NCBI RefSeq assembly: GCF_009735625.1
Contig: NZ_CP046244.1
Coordinates: forward strand, 3,112,909-3,176,908
Length of the DNA: 64,000 bases
Direction of reading: 5' to 3'
Source of the DNA: Moorella glycerini
GTDB lineage: Bacteria; Bacillota; DSM-521; Neomoorellales; Neomoorellaceae
Below are positions 5,046 through 36,590 of the stretch, in pieces (positions within the stretch are counted from its first letter, which is position 1; every line of letters begins with the position of its first letter). The notes beneath the pieces were generated by a model. It ran no database searches and had not been told where the DNA came from. It saw only the letters and a list, made by a program, of their open reading frames with translations. A program made the translations under genes and the position numbers.

Positions 5046-5896
5046 CTGGTTTCCCCCCTGTCCTGGGAATAAGATCCCAGGATTTTTAATAAACCCGTCC
5101 TGGATTTCAGGCCTGCCAGCACTTCTTTTAATGGTGGTGCCGTGGCTTTGCCCTCGCAATCAATAAAGAAAAGGTATTCCCCCAGTTCCTTTTTGGTCGG
5201 CCGGGATTCAATACGGGTCAAATTAATGCCGGCTTCAGCGAAATCCTTTAAAATGGCATAAAGACTCCCCGGGCGGTTGGCCAGGGCAGCCACCACCAGG
5301 GAGGTCTTGTAAGGACCGGGGAGGGACGGTGCCTCCCGCCCCAGAACCCAGAAGCGCGTCTTATTTTCCTGGTAATCCTGGATGCTGGTTGCCAGTACCG
5401 GTAGCTGGTAAAGCCTGGCGGCAAAGGCCGAAGCGATGGCTGCCAGTTCCGGCATCCGGCGGGCCTCCCTGGCAGCCTCAGCCGTACTGGTAACCGCCTT
5501 AAGTTTTGCTCCAGGGAGGTTAGTGGCCAGGTAATGGCGGCACTGGGCCAGGGCCTGGGGGTGGGACCAGACTTCCCGGATTGCTTTCATATCCTCTGCC
5601 TGGCCCATAAGGCAGTGGCAGACCGGCAATACTACTTCGCCGATTACCTGCAGCCCTTCTTCCTCGAGGACCAGGTCCAGGGTGAGGTTCACCGCTCCTT
5701 CGATGGAGTTTTCCACCGGTAAAATCCCTGCTCCTGCCTGGTGGTTTTGGACTGCGGTCATGACTTCCGGCAAGTTGGGGCAGGCCAGGAAAGTATCCGC
5801 CCCTGCCTGCCAGTTGCGATCTACCCGCCGTGCCCAGGCAACTGCCGCCTCATGGGAAAAAGTCCCGGGGGGCCCCAGGTAAGCTATTGCCTTCAT
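5036..5896 (-). CDS. pheA: prephenate dehydratase
   Basis: Converts prephenate to phenylpyruvate for phenylalanine synthesis. 286 residues with the periplasmic-binding-like catalytic domain ([12 protein letters not shown] at 6-17, NKTRF at 178-182) and a C-terminal ACT domain with the Phe-binding ESRP motif (230-233), so feedback inhibition by phenylalanine is likely. No fused chorismate mutase; that activity is supplied by the separate aroH upstream. It overlaps aroF by 4 bases and tyrA by 10. Confidence 0.95.
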
Positions 5897-6921
5897 GATA
5901 CCAGATGCCCCAGTTCCCGGCTGCTGGCAGCGATAATGGGCCGGATTTCCTGCACCAGGCGGGCAAATTGCTCCGGTGTCAGGGACTGGGGGCCATCGGA
6001 GAGGGCTTCCTGGGGGTTGGGGTGAACCTCGATCATTAAGCCGTCAGCGCCGGCAGCCAGGGCGGCCCTGGCCATGGGCGCGACCATAAACTTGCGCCCG
6101 GTCCCGTGGCTGGGATCGACAATGACCGGCAAGTGGGATAAATGCTTTACTGCCGGTACGGCGCTCAGGTCCAGGGTATTACGGGTGTACGTCTCAAAGG
6201 TACGGATGCCCCGCTCGCATAAGATAACCTGGCTATTACCCTCAGTGAGGATGTATTCGGCGGCCAGGAGCCATTCCTCAATGGTCGCCGACAGGCCGCG
6301 CTTCAAAAGCACCGGCTTTTGGGTGCGGCCCACGGCCTGGAGCAAGGCAAAGTTTTGCATGTTCCGGGAACCTATTTGCAGTACATCGGCAACCTGCGCG
6401 ACTGCGGTGACCAGGGCCGGGTCCATGATTTCCGTTACCACAGGCAAACCCGTAACTTCCCTGGCTTCGGCCAGGAATTCCAGGCCTTTGGCTGCCAGGC
6501 CCTGGAAGGAGTAAGGTGAGCTGCGGGGTTTATAGGCTCCCCCCCGCAGCATGGTCGCCCCGGCCTCGCGTACGGCCATGGCGGTTTCCAGGAGCTGCTC
6601 CCGGCTCTCCACCGCGCAGGGTCCGGCGATAATGTGAACCTGGTGGCCGCCGATGGTCAATTCCCCTACAGGTACCAAGGTGTCCTCGGGGTGAAAATCC
6701 CGGCCGGCCAGTTTGTAGGGCTGTAAAATGGGCACCACCTTTTCCACCCCGGGCAGGGCGGCCAGGGTCTCAGCCCTTAAACGTGTCTTATCGCCAATGG
6801 CACCAATTATGGTCCGTTCTATTCCCCGGGACAGGTGCACCTTGAAACCCTCCCGTTCCAGGCGCGCTATCACCGCCTGCTGTTCCTCAGAAGTTGCTCC
6901 GGGTTCCATGACAATGATCAT
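5893..6921 (-). CDS. aroF: 3-deoxy-7-phosphoheptulonate synthase (DAHP synthase, AroF/AroA-Ibeta type)
   Basis: First step of the shikimate pathway: PEP plus erythrose-4-phosphate to DAHP. An N-terminal ferredoxin-like regulatory domain (about 1-70) precedes the TIM-barrel catalytic domain, with [25 protein letters not shown] and IEVHPNP motifs. ATG at 6919-6921, five bases after GGGGGG, gives 342 residues; an upstream in-frame ATG at 6984 would translate through the leader hairpin. First gene of the string aroF-pheA-tyrA-aroA-cmk-plsC-ispH. Its leader contains a terminator-like hairpin and a possible short reading frame. Confidence 0.94.
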
Positions 6922-6935
6922 TTGTACCCCCCCTG

Positions 6936-6970
6936 AAAAACAAAACGTCACCCCCGCCAGGAGTGACGTT
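6936..6970 (-). terminator. hairpin with T-run between trpA and aroF
   Basis: Perfect 8-bp stem AACGTCAC/GTGACGTT with an 11-base loop, followed on the minus strand by TTTGTTTTT. It can end trp operon transcripts or act as an attenuator just ahead of the aroF ribosome-binding site. The opposite strand also has a T-run, so it may work in both directions. Confidence 0.7.
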
Positions 6971-6977
6971 TTTTCAA

Positions 6978-7016
6978 GTGCCATCTCTCCTGCCGTACTG
7001 CCATCCTGCCATTTTA
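6978..7016 (-). promoter_or_regulatory. possible leader peptide and repeated CAG motif ahead of aroF
   Basis: The minus strand carries GGCAG three times at exact 8-base spacing (6990-7010), including the 12-base motif GCAGGATGGCAG that recurs near aroH. The same bases contain a 12-codon frame, ATG at 7012-7010 to TGA, reading [12 protein letters not shown], with AAGGG nine bases upstream, and ending shortly before the terminator hairpin. One Trp and one Tyr codon are suggestive for a DAHP synthase leader but few for ribosome-stalling attenuation. The function is inferred. Confidence 0.35.
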
Positions 7017-7101
7017 AGTAACCCTTGAGGGTACCCTACCATACTACAATTTAGACTATAGCACAGTGCCCCCCCTCCTGGCAAGGGGCCTTTTATCATT
7101 T

Positions 7102-13886: not shown

Positions 13887-13895
13887 TCCGGCATA

Positions 13896-13951
13896 CTCTC
13901 CCATGCTCTACTCCGGGCTCCTCTCTAACTCCACTCAGCTCAACTCAGCTA
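13896..13951 (-). promoter_or_regulatory. (G/U)AG triplet array in the trp leader (TRAP-type binding site)
   Basis: Read on the minus strand, about ten UAG/GAG triplets follow one another with spacers of 2,2,2,2,3,2,4,2 and 5 bases. That is the signature of the site bound by the 11-subunit TRAP (MtrB) ring, which favours triplets 2-3 bases apart. The array overlaps one arm of the antiterminator, so protein binding would release the terminator when tryptophan is plentiful. No mtrB lies in the window. The neighbouring HutP-like protein belongs to another family that reads NAG triplets. Confidence 0.75.
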
Positions 13952-13970
13952 TATTCATTTTGTTGTTAAC

Positions 13971-14000
13971 AGCATACCACGGATAGTAAATAGCTGTCAA
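13971..14000 (-). promoter_or_regulatory. trp operon promoter
   Basis: Minus-strand TTGACA (14000-13995), 18-base spacer, TATGCT (13976-13971), right after the aroH stop. Predicted start near 13964, about a dozen bases before the first AG triplet, leaving a leader of about 130 bases before trpE. Confidence 0.75.
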
Positions 14001-14014
14001 TAGTTTTGTTTTCG

Positions 14015-14422
14015 CTAACGTAAATCCGGGCGTAATTGTGCTGCCCGGCCCAGATAAACGTGGACCGGTTCCCGGTCGCTATAAGCATGGATTAAAACGC
14101 GGACAATCCCCGCCAGGCTCCCCGGTACCGGTATTTCGGTAGCACATAACAAGGCTGCTTCCTGCCAGCCCAGGCGCCGTGCCGCCTCGGCCGGGAAGGC
14201 CGCGTTGAGATCCGGCGTCACCGTAAAAATGGCGCTGATAATATCTTCTACTGCCAGCCTGTTCCGGACCATTATTTCGCGGAGCAAACCTTCCGTTGCC
14301 GTGAGAATGGCGGAGGCCGTATTCTCCGGCACTTCCACGGCCCCGCGCAGCCCCCGTACTTTTGTCCCCCCGGATTCCTGTTTGCCTCCGGCTGCGGGTA
14401 AACCCTGAATTTTTTCTTCCAT
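14015..14422 (-). CDS. aroH: chorismate mutase, AroH type
   Basis: Rearranges chorismate to prephenate, the branch point to Phe and Tyr. Resembles the Bacillus AroH trimer: VRGLRGAVEV with the substrate-binding Arg, SAIFTVTPDLNAAFPAEAAR in the middle, and HVYLGRAAQLRPDL at the end with the active-site Tyr and Arg. 135 residues including about 20 extra at the N-terminus. ATG at 14422 follows AGGGGAGA. It supplies the mutase missing from pheA and tyrA downstream. Confidence 0.92.
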   Translation of the reverse strand: MEEKIQGLPAAGGKQESGGTKVRGLRGAVEVPENTASAILTATEGLLREIMVRNRLAVEDIISAIFTVTPDLNAAFPAEAARRLGWQEAALLCATEIPVPGSLAGIVRVLIHAYSDREPVHVYLGRAAQLRPDLR

Positions 14423-14425
14423 AGT

Positions 14426-14475
14426 TCTCCCCTACCATCCTGCGATTTTTTTAACAGGCTGCCTGCCATCCTGCC
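14426..14475 (-). promoter_or_regulatory. paired 12-base motif between the HutP-like gene and aroH
   Basis: The minus strand holds GCAGGATGGCAG and, about 20 bases further on, GCAGGATGGTAG, the second running into the aroH ribosome-binding site. The same motif is in the aroF leader (about 7000). The NAG triplets separated by five bases are what an NAG-reading protein such as a HutP homologue could recognise. Confidence 0.4.
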
Positions 14476-14477
14476 CC

Positions 14478-14888
14478 TCAGACGGCCCGGTGACCCAGGC
14501 CAACACCTACTTCATCCAGGTGCAACAGGCCGATGCCAAAGAAAATGGCCACACTCAAGTGATCATGCCAGCGGGCAATGCCAATTTTACCGCCTACATT
14601 TAAACCCAGGGCCTTGGGCATGATCTGGGAGAGGGCTTCCCGGGTTGCCCCGGCAACGGCCCCTTCCTCGGGGTGGGTTTCTTTTATGACCCCTTCCCTT
14701 TTGGCGGCCACTACGGCCCGTTCCACGATTTTTTGCATGGAATTGATAAATTCGCCGCCGTAATCAACGGCTGCAGTGTAAATGCCAGCGGCGGCATACT
14801 CCTTCTTTAAGCGCGCCTCTTCTTCCCGGCTTTCCGACAGGGCCATCTTAATAGCTACCGCCGCCACTTTTTTGCTCCCGTATTCCAT
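14478..14888 (-). CDS. HutP-like RNA-binding antiterminator homologue
   Basis: 136 residues resembling HutP, the histidine- and metal-dependent antiterminator of the Bacillus hut operon. The C-terminal part (LSVAIFFGIGLLHLDEVGVGLGH) aligns with the HutP core including one His (H123). The ESHALYHAT region that supplies two metal-binding histidines in B. subtilis HutP (from memory) reads EEGAVAGAT here, with Gly at both positions. No hut genes are nearby; aroH and the trp operon follow on the same strand. ATG at 14886-14888 with GGTGAG in front is preferred to the ATG at 14930. A role in controlling aromatic genes is inference. Confidence 0.75.
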   Translation of the reverse strand: MEYGSKKVAAVAIKMALSESREEEARLKKEYAAAGIYTAAVDYGGEFINSMQKIVERAVVAAKREGVIKETHPEEGAVAGATREALSQIMPKALGLNVGGKIGIARWHDHLSVAIFFGIGLLHLDEVGVGLGHRAV

Positions 14889-14918
14889 ATGCTCACCACC
14901 TGTATAGCCCTTGAGCCG

Positions 14919-14947
14919 ATTATAGTTCATACCGGCAAGTCATGCAA
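14919..14947 (-). promoter_or_regulatory. promoter of the HutP-like gene
   Basis: Minus-strand TTGCAT (14947-14942), 17-base spacer, perfect TATAAT (14924-14919), about 35 bases before the ATG. Confidence 0.75.
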
Positions 14948-15092: not shown

Positions 15093-15317
15093 ATGCAAAT
15101 AAATTGCCTAATCCCGTAAATACTAGGGAACGGGGGAACCACCAGAAGGGGTGAATCCCCGCACCCAGTAACATCATTGCCTTTTTGCGAAACTCCTTTT
15201 TGAGGAGTTTAAGTAATTAAGGTAGCAGGGGGAGGAAAACTGGGTGCGGGATAGGGCTTTTCTCCGGCCCGAACCCGGCAGCTAACCTCGTCGGCAGGAA
15301 GGGAGATGAACCTGCAT
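15093..15317 (+). ncRNA. ydaO-yuaA (cyclic-di-AMP) riboswitch
   Basis: Contains the diagnostic stretches of this class: CGGGGGAACC near 15132, GGGGTGAATCCC near 15150, ATAGGGC...GCCCGAACCCG near 15252-15285, and CAGCTAACCTCGTCGGCAGG near 15280-15300. ATGC at 15093-15096 can close with GCAT at 15314-15317. A central variable arm of about 80 bases is present. Such riboswitches normally turn genes off when c-di-AMP is high; they control K+ uptake and osmolyte genes. It precedes the permease operon. Confidence 0.92.
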
Positions 15318-15451: not shown

Positions 15452-17017
15452 TTGGCTGCGGCTGCAGAAAAGCTGGAACTCCGCCGGGATGTTACCGTCT
15501 GGGGCTCCTATATGTGGGGCTACGCCGATGTCGGCGCCGACATCTACGCCGCCCTGGGACTGGTCATGCTGTGGGCCAAGGGCGCTACTCCCCTGGCCTT
15601 CGCTCTGGCGGGTCTTGTTTACATTATGATTGGCCTGGCTTATACCGAGCTGGCGGCCACCTATCCCGTAGCCGGCGGCGGCCAGTATTTTACCCTGCGC
15701 GGCCTGGGCGACTTCTGGGGTTTTGTCGCCGGGTCCGCCTTGCTGCTGGATTATACCATCGACATTGCCCTCTTTGCCACGGCTTCTGCCGGTTATATCA
15801 ACTTTTTCCTGCCCTTTATCTTCGGTATTGATATTAACTCCCTGGCCATTAGCATCGGGCCCCTGCACCATGTTAACCTGGTGTGGATGGCCGAAGCCTT
15901 GCTCCTGGTGATTTTCCTTATCGCCCTCAATATTCGCGGGATGCGGGAGTCCTCCCTGCTGAACGAGGTACTGGGGGTTATCGACATCCTTACGGAATCA
16001 AGTATCATCATCTTCGGTTTTCTCTTTGCCTGGCGGCCGGAAATGCTGGCCCACCAGTGGCTCACCCAGTTCCCCACCCTGAAAGAATTCGCCTACGGTT
16101 CCTCCCTGGCCATTATTTCCTTTGTCGGCCTGGAATCTATCTCCCAGGCGGCCCAGGAAACCAAACGGCCGGCAACCATCGTCCCCCGGACATCAGTGAG
16201 CCTGATCTTTACCGTTTTTATCTTTGCCACTGCCTTTTCCACCATGAGCCTGGGTGTCCTGCCCTGGCAGGAAATTGCCGAGTCCGTAGGTGACCCCATA
16301 GCCACCCTGGCCCACGCCATTCCCTTTATTGGTTTTATTGCCGGTCCCTTTGCCGCCGTGCTGGGAGCGACGATCCTCTTGATTTCGGCCAATTCGGGGG
16401 TTATGAGCGCCTCAAGGCTGACCTTTGCCATGAGCCAGTTTCACTTTATCAGCGAGTGGTTTAACGCCGTCCACCCACGTTTCCGGACTCCTTATCGTAC
16501 CATCATCATTTTCTCCGGTATTGGTATACTCCAGATCATCCTTTCGTTCCTGACACCCAATGCTATGGATACCCTGGGTAACATGTATGCCTTCGGCGCC
16601 ACCACGGGATACATCCTGGTCTTTATCGCTTTGATCAAACTGCGCTTTACCGATCCCTATTCGCCCCGGCCCTATAAAGTACCTTTGAACATCAAAATCA
16701 ATTACCGCGGACGACAGGTTGATTTTCCCGGCCTGGCCGTTCTCGGCACCCTGGGGATCAGCACCATTCTTTTTGAGGTTATCCTTACCCATGCTATTGG
16801 CCGGATTGCCGGCCCGGCCTGGGTACTCCTCTGCTTCCTCTATTACGCCTATTACCGCCGGAGCAAGGGATACCCCGTTCTGGGCAGCATCCCCCGCAAC
16901 TGGGAAGAAGAGCAACTAAAAGTCCTGGAAGCGGCGGAAGAATATGACCTGCTGGAACAATACAAGCTGGCCCTGGCCGAGCGCGACCGCAAGGAGGCTG
17001 TTTCTCATGCCCAGTGA
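15452..17017 (+). CDS. APC-superfamily permease, probable K+ or amino acid transporter
   Basis: 521 residues with about 12 hydrophobic segments of the amino acid/polyamine/organocation fold, then a soluble tail of about 45 residues (GYPVLGSIPRNWEEEQ onward). TTG at 15452 follows AGAGGAGGG. Placement directly behind a c-di-AMP riboswitch and ahead of Usp and TrkA-type genes recalls KimA (YdaO), an APC-type K+ importer under the same riboswitch class in B. subtilis. KimA carries its cytosolic domain fused, whereas here it would be separate proteins. Substrate not established; amino acid transport remains possible. Confidence 0.8.
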   Translation: MAAAAEKLELRRDVTVWGSYMWGYADVGADIYAALGLVMLWAKGATPLAFALAGLVYIMIGLAYTELAATYPVAGGGQYFTLRGLGDFWGFVAGSALLLDYTIDIALFATASAGYINFFLPFIFGIDINSLAISIGPLHHVNLVWMAEALLLVIFLIALNIRGMRESSLLNEVLGVIDILTESSIIIFGFLFAWRPEMLAHQWLTQFPTLKEFAYGSSLAIISFVGLESISQAAQETKRPATIVPRTSVSLIFTVFIFATAFSTMSLGVLPWQEIAESVGDPIATLAHAIPFIGFIAGPFAAVLGATILLISANSGVMSASRLTFAMSQFHFISEWFNAVHPRFRTPYRTIIIFSGIGILQIILSFLTPNAMDTLGNMYAFGATTGYILVFIALIKLRFTDPYSPRPYKVPLNIKINYRGRQVDFPGLAVLGTLGISTILFEVILTHAIGRIAGPAWVLLCFLYYAYYRRSKGYPVLGSIPRNWEEEQLKVLEAAEEYDLLEQYKLALAERDRKEAVSHAQ

Positions 17018-36420: not shown

Positions 36421-36431
36421 AATTTTGTATA

Positions 36432-36590
36432 ACCTGGAACGCTGAATTGCGGTGCGCAGCCGTAAGCGGGGGACCCACTTTTGCCGGGGTGAATCTCGCC
36501 GGTTAATTCCGGCGAGTAGGGCTAACCTTCAGCCCGAATCCGTCAGCTAACTTCGTAAGCGTGGAAGGGGATATGTGACGGTACTTTCAT
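36432..36590 (+). ncRNA. ydaO-yuaA (cyclic-di-AMP) riboswitch upstream of otsA
   Basis: Matches the class consensus more closely than the first copy: GTAAGCGGGGGACCC near 36462, GCCGGGGTGAATC near 36485, GAGTAGGGC...GCCCGAATCCGTCAGCTAAC near 36512-36550, then TTCGTAAGCGTGG. It is followed directly by a terminator. This places trehalose synthesis under c-di-AMP control, in line with the osmolyte role of the signal. Confidence 0.94.

Follow-up and report, generated by a model that had tools for sequence, protein, structure and literature searches.

A gene for a HutP-family protein lies directly 5' of aroH and the trp operon (trpEGDCFBA) in the 64,000-nucleotide stretch of the Moorella glycerini genome analysed here (the window), as the initial annotation had described. 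HutP proteins recognise NAG triplets, HutP is a hexamer with two RNA-binding faces, and to our knowledge it is known essentially as one antiterminator that responds to histidine and metal. The locus raises the question of what a HutP relative does beside genes of aromatic amino acid synthesis. The features on which the analysis rests are collected in Table 1.

Table 1. Coordinates of the hutP, aroH, trp and aroF features in the window
Feature	Positions	Strand	Basis
Probable hutP promoter, TTGCAT-17-TATAAT	14919..14947	-	by eye
A-type hutP, 136 aa	14478..14888	-	Pfam, predicted structure, alignment
aroH leader, first triplet cluster, GCAGGATGGCAG	14463..14474	-	exact match to GYAGNAYGGYAG
aroH leader, second triplet cluster, GCAGGATGGTAG	14432..14443	-	abuts aroH ribosome-binding site
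aroH, chorismate mutase (type I)	14015..14422	-	PF07736 E 5.6e-40, TIGR01796
trp operon promoter-like TTGACA-18-TATGCT	13971..14000	-	promoter scan
TRAP-type (G/U)AG array across trpE ribosome-binding site	13891..13955	-	triplet count
aroF promoter-like TTGCCA-18-TATAGT	7055..7084	-	leader sequence
aroF leader, upstream cluster, GTAGTATGGTAG	7036..7047	-	12-mer match
aroF leader, main three-unit site, GGCAGGATGGCAGTACGGCAG	6990..7010	-	exact pattern match
aroF leader, intrinsic terminator, then T tract	6942..6972	-	-19.9 kcal/mol for positions 6935-6975
aroF, DAHP synthase	5893..6921	-	NF006421 E 7.9e-157
Repeat unit as RNA, candidate three-unit form, (GGUAGGAU)3			

Identity and ligand site of the HutP-family protein

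The open reading frame is real and its product is a member of the HutP family by profile and fold, as had been claimed from the letters of the sequence. In a Pfam scan of the protein, HutP (PF09021) matched with an E-value of 1.5e-51 over model positions 1-128 of 128 and was the only family listed, the TRAP profile PF02081 being absent; NCBIfam contains no model for the protein. An AlphaFold monomer model built from 45 orthologues (pLDDT 91.5) predicts the HutP fold: the top structural matches are all HutP from B. subtilis or Geobacillus, including 1vea_A (Z 17.8, 2.1 A, 127 aligned residues, 25% identity), and the first unrelated structures appear at Z 7.3. A profile of the subfamily, here termed A-type, gave no significant match to a HutP chain in the PDB from sequence alone, and A-type HutP is therefore a remote subfamily. 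The 45-sequence alignment, which comprises the window protein and 44 of 80 genome_contigs loci, has 40 invariant columns and identities to the Moorella protein of 59-93%, indicating that A-type hutP is under purifying selection.

An open reading frame is present at 14478-14930 on the minus strand, and 14888 is the preferred start because a stop interrupts the upstream extension in the orthologue at locus L007; the ATG and SD sequence at 14888 are kept across Moorella in the alignment. The proposal that hutP has its own promoter stands in part, since the element recognised by eye is kept in most Moorella leaders, yet it falls under the threshold of the promoter scan. Divergent to hutP, a c-di-AMP riboswitch (RF00379) at 15095-15310 on the plus strand precedes a transporter-like gene at 15452-17017, and a second lies at 36430-36576 on the same strand.

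To inspect positions 73, 77 and 138, which we take to be the metal-ligand histidines of B. subtilis HutP, that protein was aligned with 171 family members, 135 of them A-type and 36 of other HutP types; the partial sequences of L082 and L083 were omitted. Positions 73 and 77 (B. subtilis numbering) are both glycine in all 135 A-type proteins, and position 138 is acidic in every one (Glu in 116, Asp in 19), and all three metal-ligand positions are therefore lost; Glu81 is retained in 134 of the 135. In the Moorella protein the corresponding residues are Gly76, Gly80 and an acidic residue. The initial annotation had reported that both histidines of the HALYH motif are glycine and that the ligand site may differ from the histidine-plus-metal site of HutP; both statements hold, but the third ligand position is gone as well, making the loss one of three histidines rather than two. 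With the triad lost, A-type HutP cannot bind histidine via a metal as HutP does, and the name "hut regulator" is therefore unsuitable for it. Other HutP proteins carry His/His at 73/77 in 22 of 36 cases, His at 138 in 30 and the complete triad in 22, although L117, counted among these 36, is itself of the Gly/Gly type. By sequence, A-type is a distinct, deeply conserved HutP subfamily.

The Pfam family name would suggest an ordinary histidine- and metal-dependent HutP that serves a distant hut operon. This is scarcely credible, given that the ligands are replaced in every A-type protein while most of the other HutP proteins keep them, and that no hut genes were recognised next to A-type loci with gene order examined. 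Moreover, a second HutP in the same genome (G000:C1:1010875-1011264; L002 1492-1929) has an intact His triad and aligns to the solved HutP. This second gene lies 5' of a CoA-transferase-like gene.

Distribution and neighbourhood of A-type HutP

Of the 22 genomes of the class, 20 contain a HutP-family member, as do 257 of 398 genomes in a phylum-wide sample. By score, 223 of these 257 HutP-bearing genomes possess the A-type, the type being assigned from best E-values in tables built with hand-copied genome handles; this count includes two genomes (G070 and G375) in which a frame-broken or truncated gene lies beside aroH. Four loci (L051, L055, L100 and L106) fall outside the HutP cluster.

Conservation of the aromatic neighbourhood, on which the initial annotation had staked its proposal, was found across the sample. 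Of 78 genome_contigs loci, 54 have aroH immediately 3' of A-type hutP in the same orientation, as do 41 of the 57 loci taken across families; at 35 loci of other HutP types, aroH never adjoins hutP. Beyond aroH follow trpEGDC, aroF-tyrA-aroA or cmk-plsC-ispH. About a third of A-type loci do not have aroH adjacent, and in lineages that lack aroH a TrpX-type ABC transporter may come after hutP (L151, L170). The conserved aroH neighbourhood supports the earlier view of an unrecognised regulator tied to aromatic amino acid synthesis, one that would act by binding RNA. At the level of whole genomes, 188 of 223 A-type genomes possess aroH vs 101 of 175 others, counts that ignore phylogeny. A strict dependence of A-type HutP on aroH is ruled out by the 35 A-type genomes without aroH, 7 of which also lack chorismate synthase.

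A link to sporulation was considered and set aside: among genomes with SpoIVA, 215 of 336 possess A-type HutP, vs 8 of 62 among those without it, counts that ignore phylogeny and include these 8 exceptions. Two further observations concern the gene complement. No match to chorismate synthase (PF01264) was obtained in the genome of the window despite its completeness of 99.97%, and each of the 14 control genomes gave one; masking or a broken gene is a possible cause. Directly 5' of A-type hutP, many lineages encode a protein of 160-180 aa that has a single membrane segment at its N terminus and matches no Pfam family; it forms a cluster of 70 loci (e.g. L010 7468-7956, L012 7370-7924 and relatives).

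Triplet repeats in the trp, aroH and aroF leaders

The trp leader had been described as a row of AG triplets that HutP might read. The row is real, with 14 KAG triplets in 65 nt, the sole such stretch in the window and one that was not equalled in any of 2000 shuffles. HutP proteins do read NAG triplets, and the row could on that ground be the RNA of A-type HutP, but this is very improbable. Its 2-3 nt spacing is that of TRAP targets, most dense KAG arrays of the fetched loci precede trpE, and the period-8 motif described below occurs in none of 20 trpE leaders. TRAP, which recognises (G/U)AG repeats (PMC4027176), is encoded in the Moorella genome outside the hutP locus (PF02081, E 3.1e-39); of 63 A-type genomes tested, 53 encode it too. 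The AG row of the trp leader is accounted for by TRAP.

When leaders were scanned for UAG triplets separated by 3-5 nt, 11 matches were found vs 8 in a shuffle, a difference that is not significant alone, and these 11 matches had GGTAG at a constant 8-nt period in common. Exact GGTAG triples, sought with steps of 7-10 nt, number 9 in the 2.1 Mb of loci scanned; every step is 8 nt, and all 9 precede aroH, aroF, hutP or the gene after hutP. When at least 13 of 15 positions were required to match, 46 sites were found in the same 2.1 Mb vs 2 in shuffles. Distances between GGYAG pairs in aroF, aroH and hutP leaders are equally uneven, with 53 pairs at 8 nt and 17 at 16 nt, and only 0-3 at each other distance from 5 to 24 nt (at most 2 at 5-7 or 9-15 nt); the antisense strand of these leaders contains a single pair, at distance 23. 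The triplets of B. subtilis HutP targets have 4-nt spacers and thus a period of 7 nt, whereas the period in the proposed A-type targets is 8 nt.

A 21-nt position weight matrix, whose training sites came partly from the same lineages as the leaders on which it was tested, found sites in 24 of 57 aroF, 21 of 98 aroH, 19 of 136 hutP and 2 of 13 hisC leaders, and none on the antisense strand of the aroF, aroH and hutP leaders. The leaders of yhiN (0/55), c3mem (0/70) and trpE (0/20) had no site, nor did those of trpD, ilvC, plsC, ispH, tyrA and aroA; sites were found in 2 of 39 leaders of rluB and 7 of 1091 of unclassified genes. A matrix site is present in only 54 of 138 A-type loci. Of 99 leader sites, 44 have a second cluster on their 5' side, in most cases at a distance of 12-35 nt, an arrangement that occurred 0 times in shuffles. 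Strand-specificity and position within leaders favour a signal in RNA over one in DNA. Rfam gave no match in 14 A-type loci and none in the aroF leader.

In the GC-rich Moorella genome, three GGYAGN3 units with up to 2 mismatches gave 180 matches vs 46 for the reversed pattern, and because this is too loose, the search within that genome used exact or clustered matches. At least two copies of GYAGNAYGGYAG within 100 nt are found at only two places in the 3.56-Mb genome, the leaders of aroF (7047-6990) and aroH (14474-14432); the 12-mer itself occurs 23 times, compared with 9 for its reversed control. Genome G005 has clustered 12-mers at the same two places. The three-unit site of the aroF leader is the sole exact match to GGYAGN3GGYAGN3GGYAG in the Moorella genome, and aroF is followed by pheA, a tyrA-like gene, aroA, cmk, plsC and ispH, names that were given from the look of the sequences and their order. 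The two aroH clusters are 19 nt apart in the hutP-aroH spacer, which shows no conserved RNA structure in the window (z about 0). Among the leaders that the initial annotation had named for RNA-binding tests, those of aroH and aroF now appear to be likely targets of HutP, and that of trpE does not.

Across the 398 genomes, GGYAGNAYGGYAGNAYGGYAG with at most 1 mismatch is found in 114, which span about 40 families by hand count. The motif and the protein co-occur, with matches in 105 of 223 A-type genomes vs 9 of 175 others (counts that ignore phylogeny), compared with 18 A-type genomes and 4 others for a reversed-pattern control. Within the single family f51, read by hand, all 6 A-type genomes have the motif, and of the 5 others 1 does. 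Among the nine genomes with the motif and no A-type HutP, the match is a satellite repeat in G042 and lies in or over long open reading frames in G123, G346 and G171. In G139 and G364 the sites precede aroF, and in G306 they precede an AMP-binding gene and a TrpX-type gene; these three assemblies, in which A-type HutP was not detected, are 80-91% complete. G022, whose site has no clear target, and G238 make up the remainder.

These data bear on whether the period-8 repeats might instead be the target of another factor or a structured RNA, with the HutP relative performing some other, perhaps housekeeping, job in the same operon. The absence of a strict match in 118 of the 223 A-type genomes, the loci without adjacent aroH, and the persistence of the protein in the 7 genomes without chorismate synthase, none of which has a motif match, all favour such a reading. 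We nevertheless consider it distinctly unlikely, since it leaves aside the co-occurrence of motif and protein, within f51 as well as overall, and the presence of the motif in the leader of hutP itself in many lineages. The triplets, the two clusters and the terminator also match the layout of HutP targets, and no Rfam family matches.

The genes that follow the motif were recorded for 111 sites in fetched loci, against 167 genome matches, neighbouring matches having been merged and most sites beside already fetched hutP loci passed over. The next gene is aroF at 44 sites, tyrA and hisC at 3 each, and pheA, aroE, aroK, aroH and hutP at 1 each. A TrpX-type solute-binding protein follows at 10 sites and phenylacetate-CoA ligase (PaaK) at 2, names that rest on NCBIfam scores below the curated cut-offs (323.5 bits against 390 for TrpX, 571 against 646.3 for PaaK). 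Sodium:solute symporters (9 sites), DctP-type binding proteins (7) and AMP-binding ligases (7), whose roles may lie outside aromatic metabolism, were counted against an aromatic regulon, and 21 sites have no clear target gene. In three Moorella loci (L253, L255 and L256) the period-8 site abuts the start codon of the symporter gene, which suggests translational control.

A proposed attenuation mechanism and its relation to known systems

We consider it likely that A-type HutP controls a regulon of aromatic amino acid genes by RNA attenuation, resembling HutP but working without a metal; its binding to RNA, its ligand and the sign of its control are parts of this reading that we infer. The protein would act as a metal-independent hexamer that senses an aromatic amino acid or a pathway intermediate and reads UAG/CAG triplets presented as GGYAG units with an 8-nt period. 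Its typical target would be a three-unit cluster with a shorter upstream cluster, close to the 5' end of the mRNA, and binding would repress. At aroF, the bound protein would keep the last unit, CAGGAG, off the CUCCUG of the terminator 5' arm and so let the terminator form; on the aroH mRNA it would mask the ribosome-binding site.

Terminators lie within 200 nt 3' of 67 of the 111 sites, compared with 5 after one shuffle per region, and in 53 leaders the terminator mostly starts 12-26 nt behind the site. When the aroF leader of the window is folded only to the terminator loop, CAGGAG pairs with CUCCUG, and when the complete leader is folded the terminator forms. Pairing between site and terminator arm in the 53 leaders, many of them close relatives, scores 14.8 vs 13.0 for swapped and 12.6 for shuffled partners, and antiterminator pairing is thus moderately above controls. 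In TrpX leaders with an altered second unit (GGCCG, GGTCG), matching letters are found in the terminator loop. Because binding would remove this antiterminator, a repressing, TRAP-like sign is proposed.

The opposite sign, in which A-type HutP is an antiterminator that melts the terminator and turns aroF on in response to low aromatics or a pathway intermediate, deserves consideration but is in our judgement unlikely. In its favour, the protein has the HutP fold, and its proposed targets have triplet clusters with a terminator shortly after them, as in HutP's own layout; HutP prevents terminator formation (PMC7430163). Against this, the last unit can pair with the 5' arm of the terminator, and binding should therefore favour termination; furthermore, the sites at aroH and at the Moorella symporter genes abut the start, where binding would block translation.

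Read as a repressing attenuator, A-type HutP shares with B. subtilis HutP its fold and Pfam family, and also NAG-triplet clusters, two of them ~20 nt apart, beside an intrinsic terminator (PMC7430163), the reader of which is here presumed to be the A-type protein. It differs in lacking the metal-ligand histidines, in having an aromatic rather than a histidine regulon and, probably, in repressing. The proposed logic is shared with TRAP (MtrB) of B. subtilis, where a protein that occupies triplet repeats upon an amino acid signal shuts off an aromatic operon by obstructing an antiterminator or the ribosome-binding site; TRAP, however, belongs to an unrelated family (PF02081) and reads 11 (G/U)AG repeats at 2-3 nt spacing. 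Both proteins are encoded in Moorella and would act on different leaders of one gene cluster. T-box leaders of Firmicutes govern genes of the same classes, trpX among them (PMC9382623), but they are tRNA-sensing structured RNAs, for which Rfam matches are absent from the A-type loci and aroF leader searched. In a search that covered mainly open-access literature, no paper was found that links HutP to aroH or aromatic genes, and no aromatic amino acid regulator besides TRAP and T-boxes was found described for the group.

A-type HutP is a widespread, previously undescribed HutP relative that very probably reads the repeated GGUAG signal in mRNAs at the start of aromatic amino acid synthesis, and would on that account be a new gene switch. 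For a large bacterial group, the analysis proposes how aromatic amino acid genes may be controlled, naming a regulator, an RNA code and the genes that it targets; one fold would here carry a seemingly changed ligand site, spacing code, regulon and possibly sign. The exact binding sites that it predicts make the reading experimentally testable, and the reading is relevant to engineering acetogens, Moorella among them. For a broader reading we see about an even chance: that the metal-independent subfamily is the master regulator, acting on RNA, of how aromatic amino acids are made, taken up and perhaps broken down in some 40 Clostridia-like families, with a GGUAG period-8 code, a rebuilt aromatic-ligand pocket and TRAP-like attenuation. 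If so, HutP-type proteins would be general triplet-reading attenuators with several ligand types, comprising His/His/His, Arg/Arg/His, Asn and Gly/Gly forms.

Two other HutP subfamilies were observed in the alignment. HutP proteins of ~260 aa with Asn at position 77 (L105, L111, L112, L115, L116 and L121) are encoded in the gene order c70-c68-c69-c71-hutP in every case. Proteins in which Arg/Arg/His replaces the His triad (L094, L097, L099, L101, L103, L110 and L119) have ABC transporter genes downstream in several lineages.
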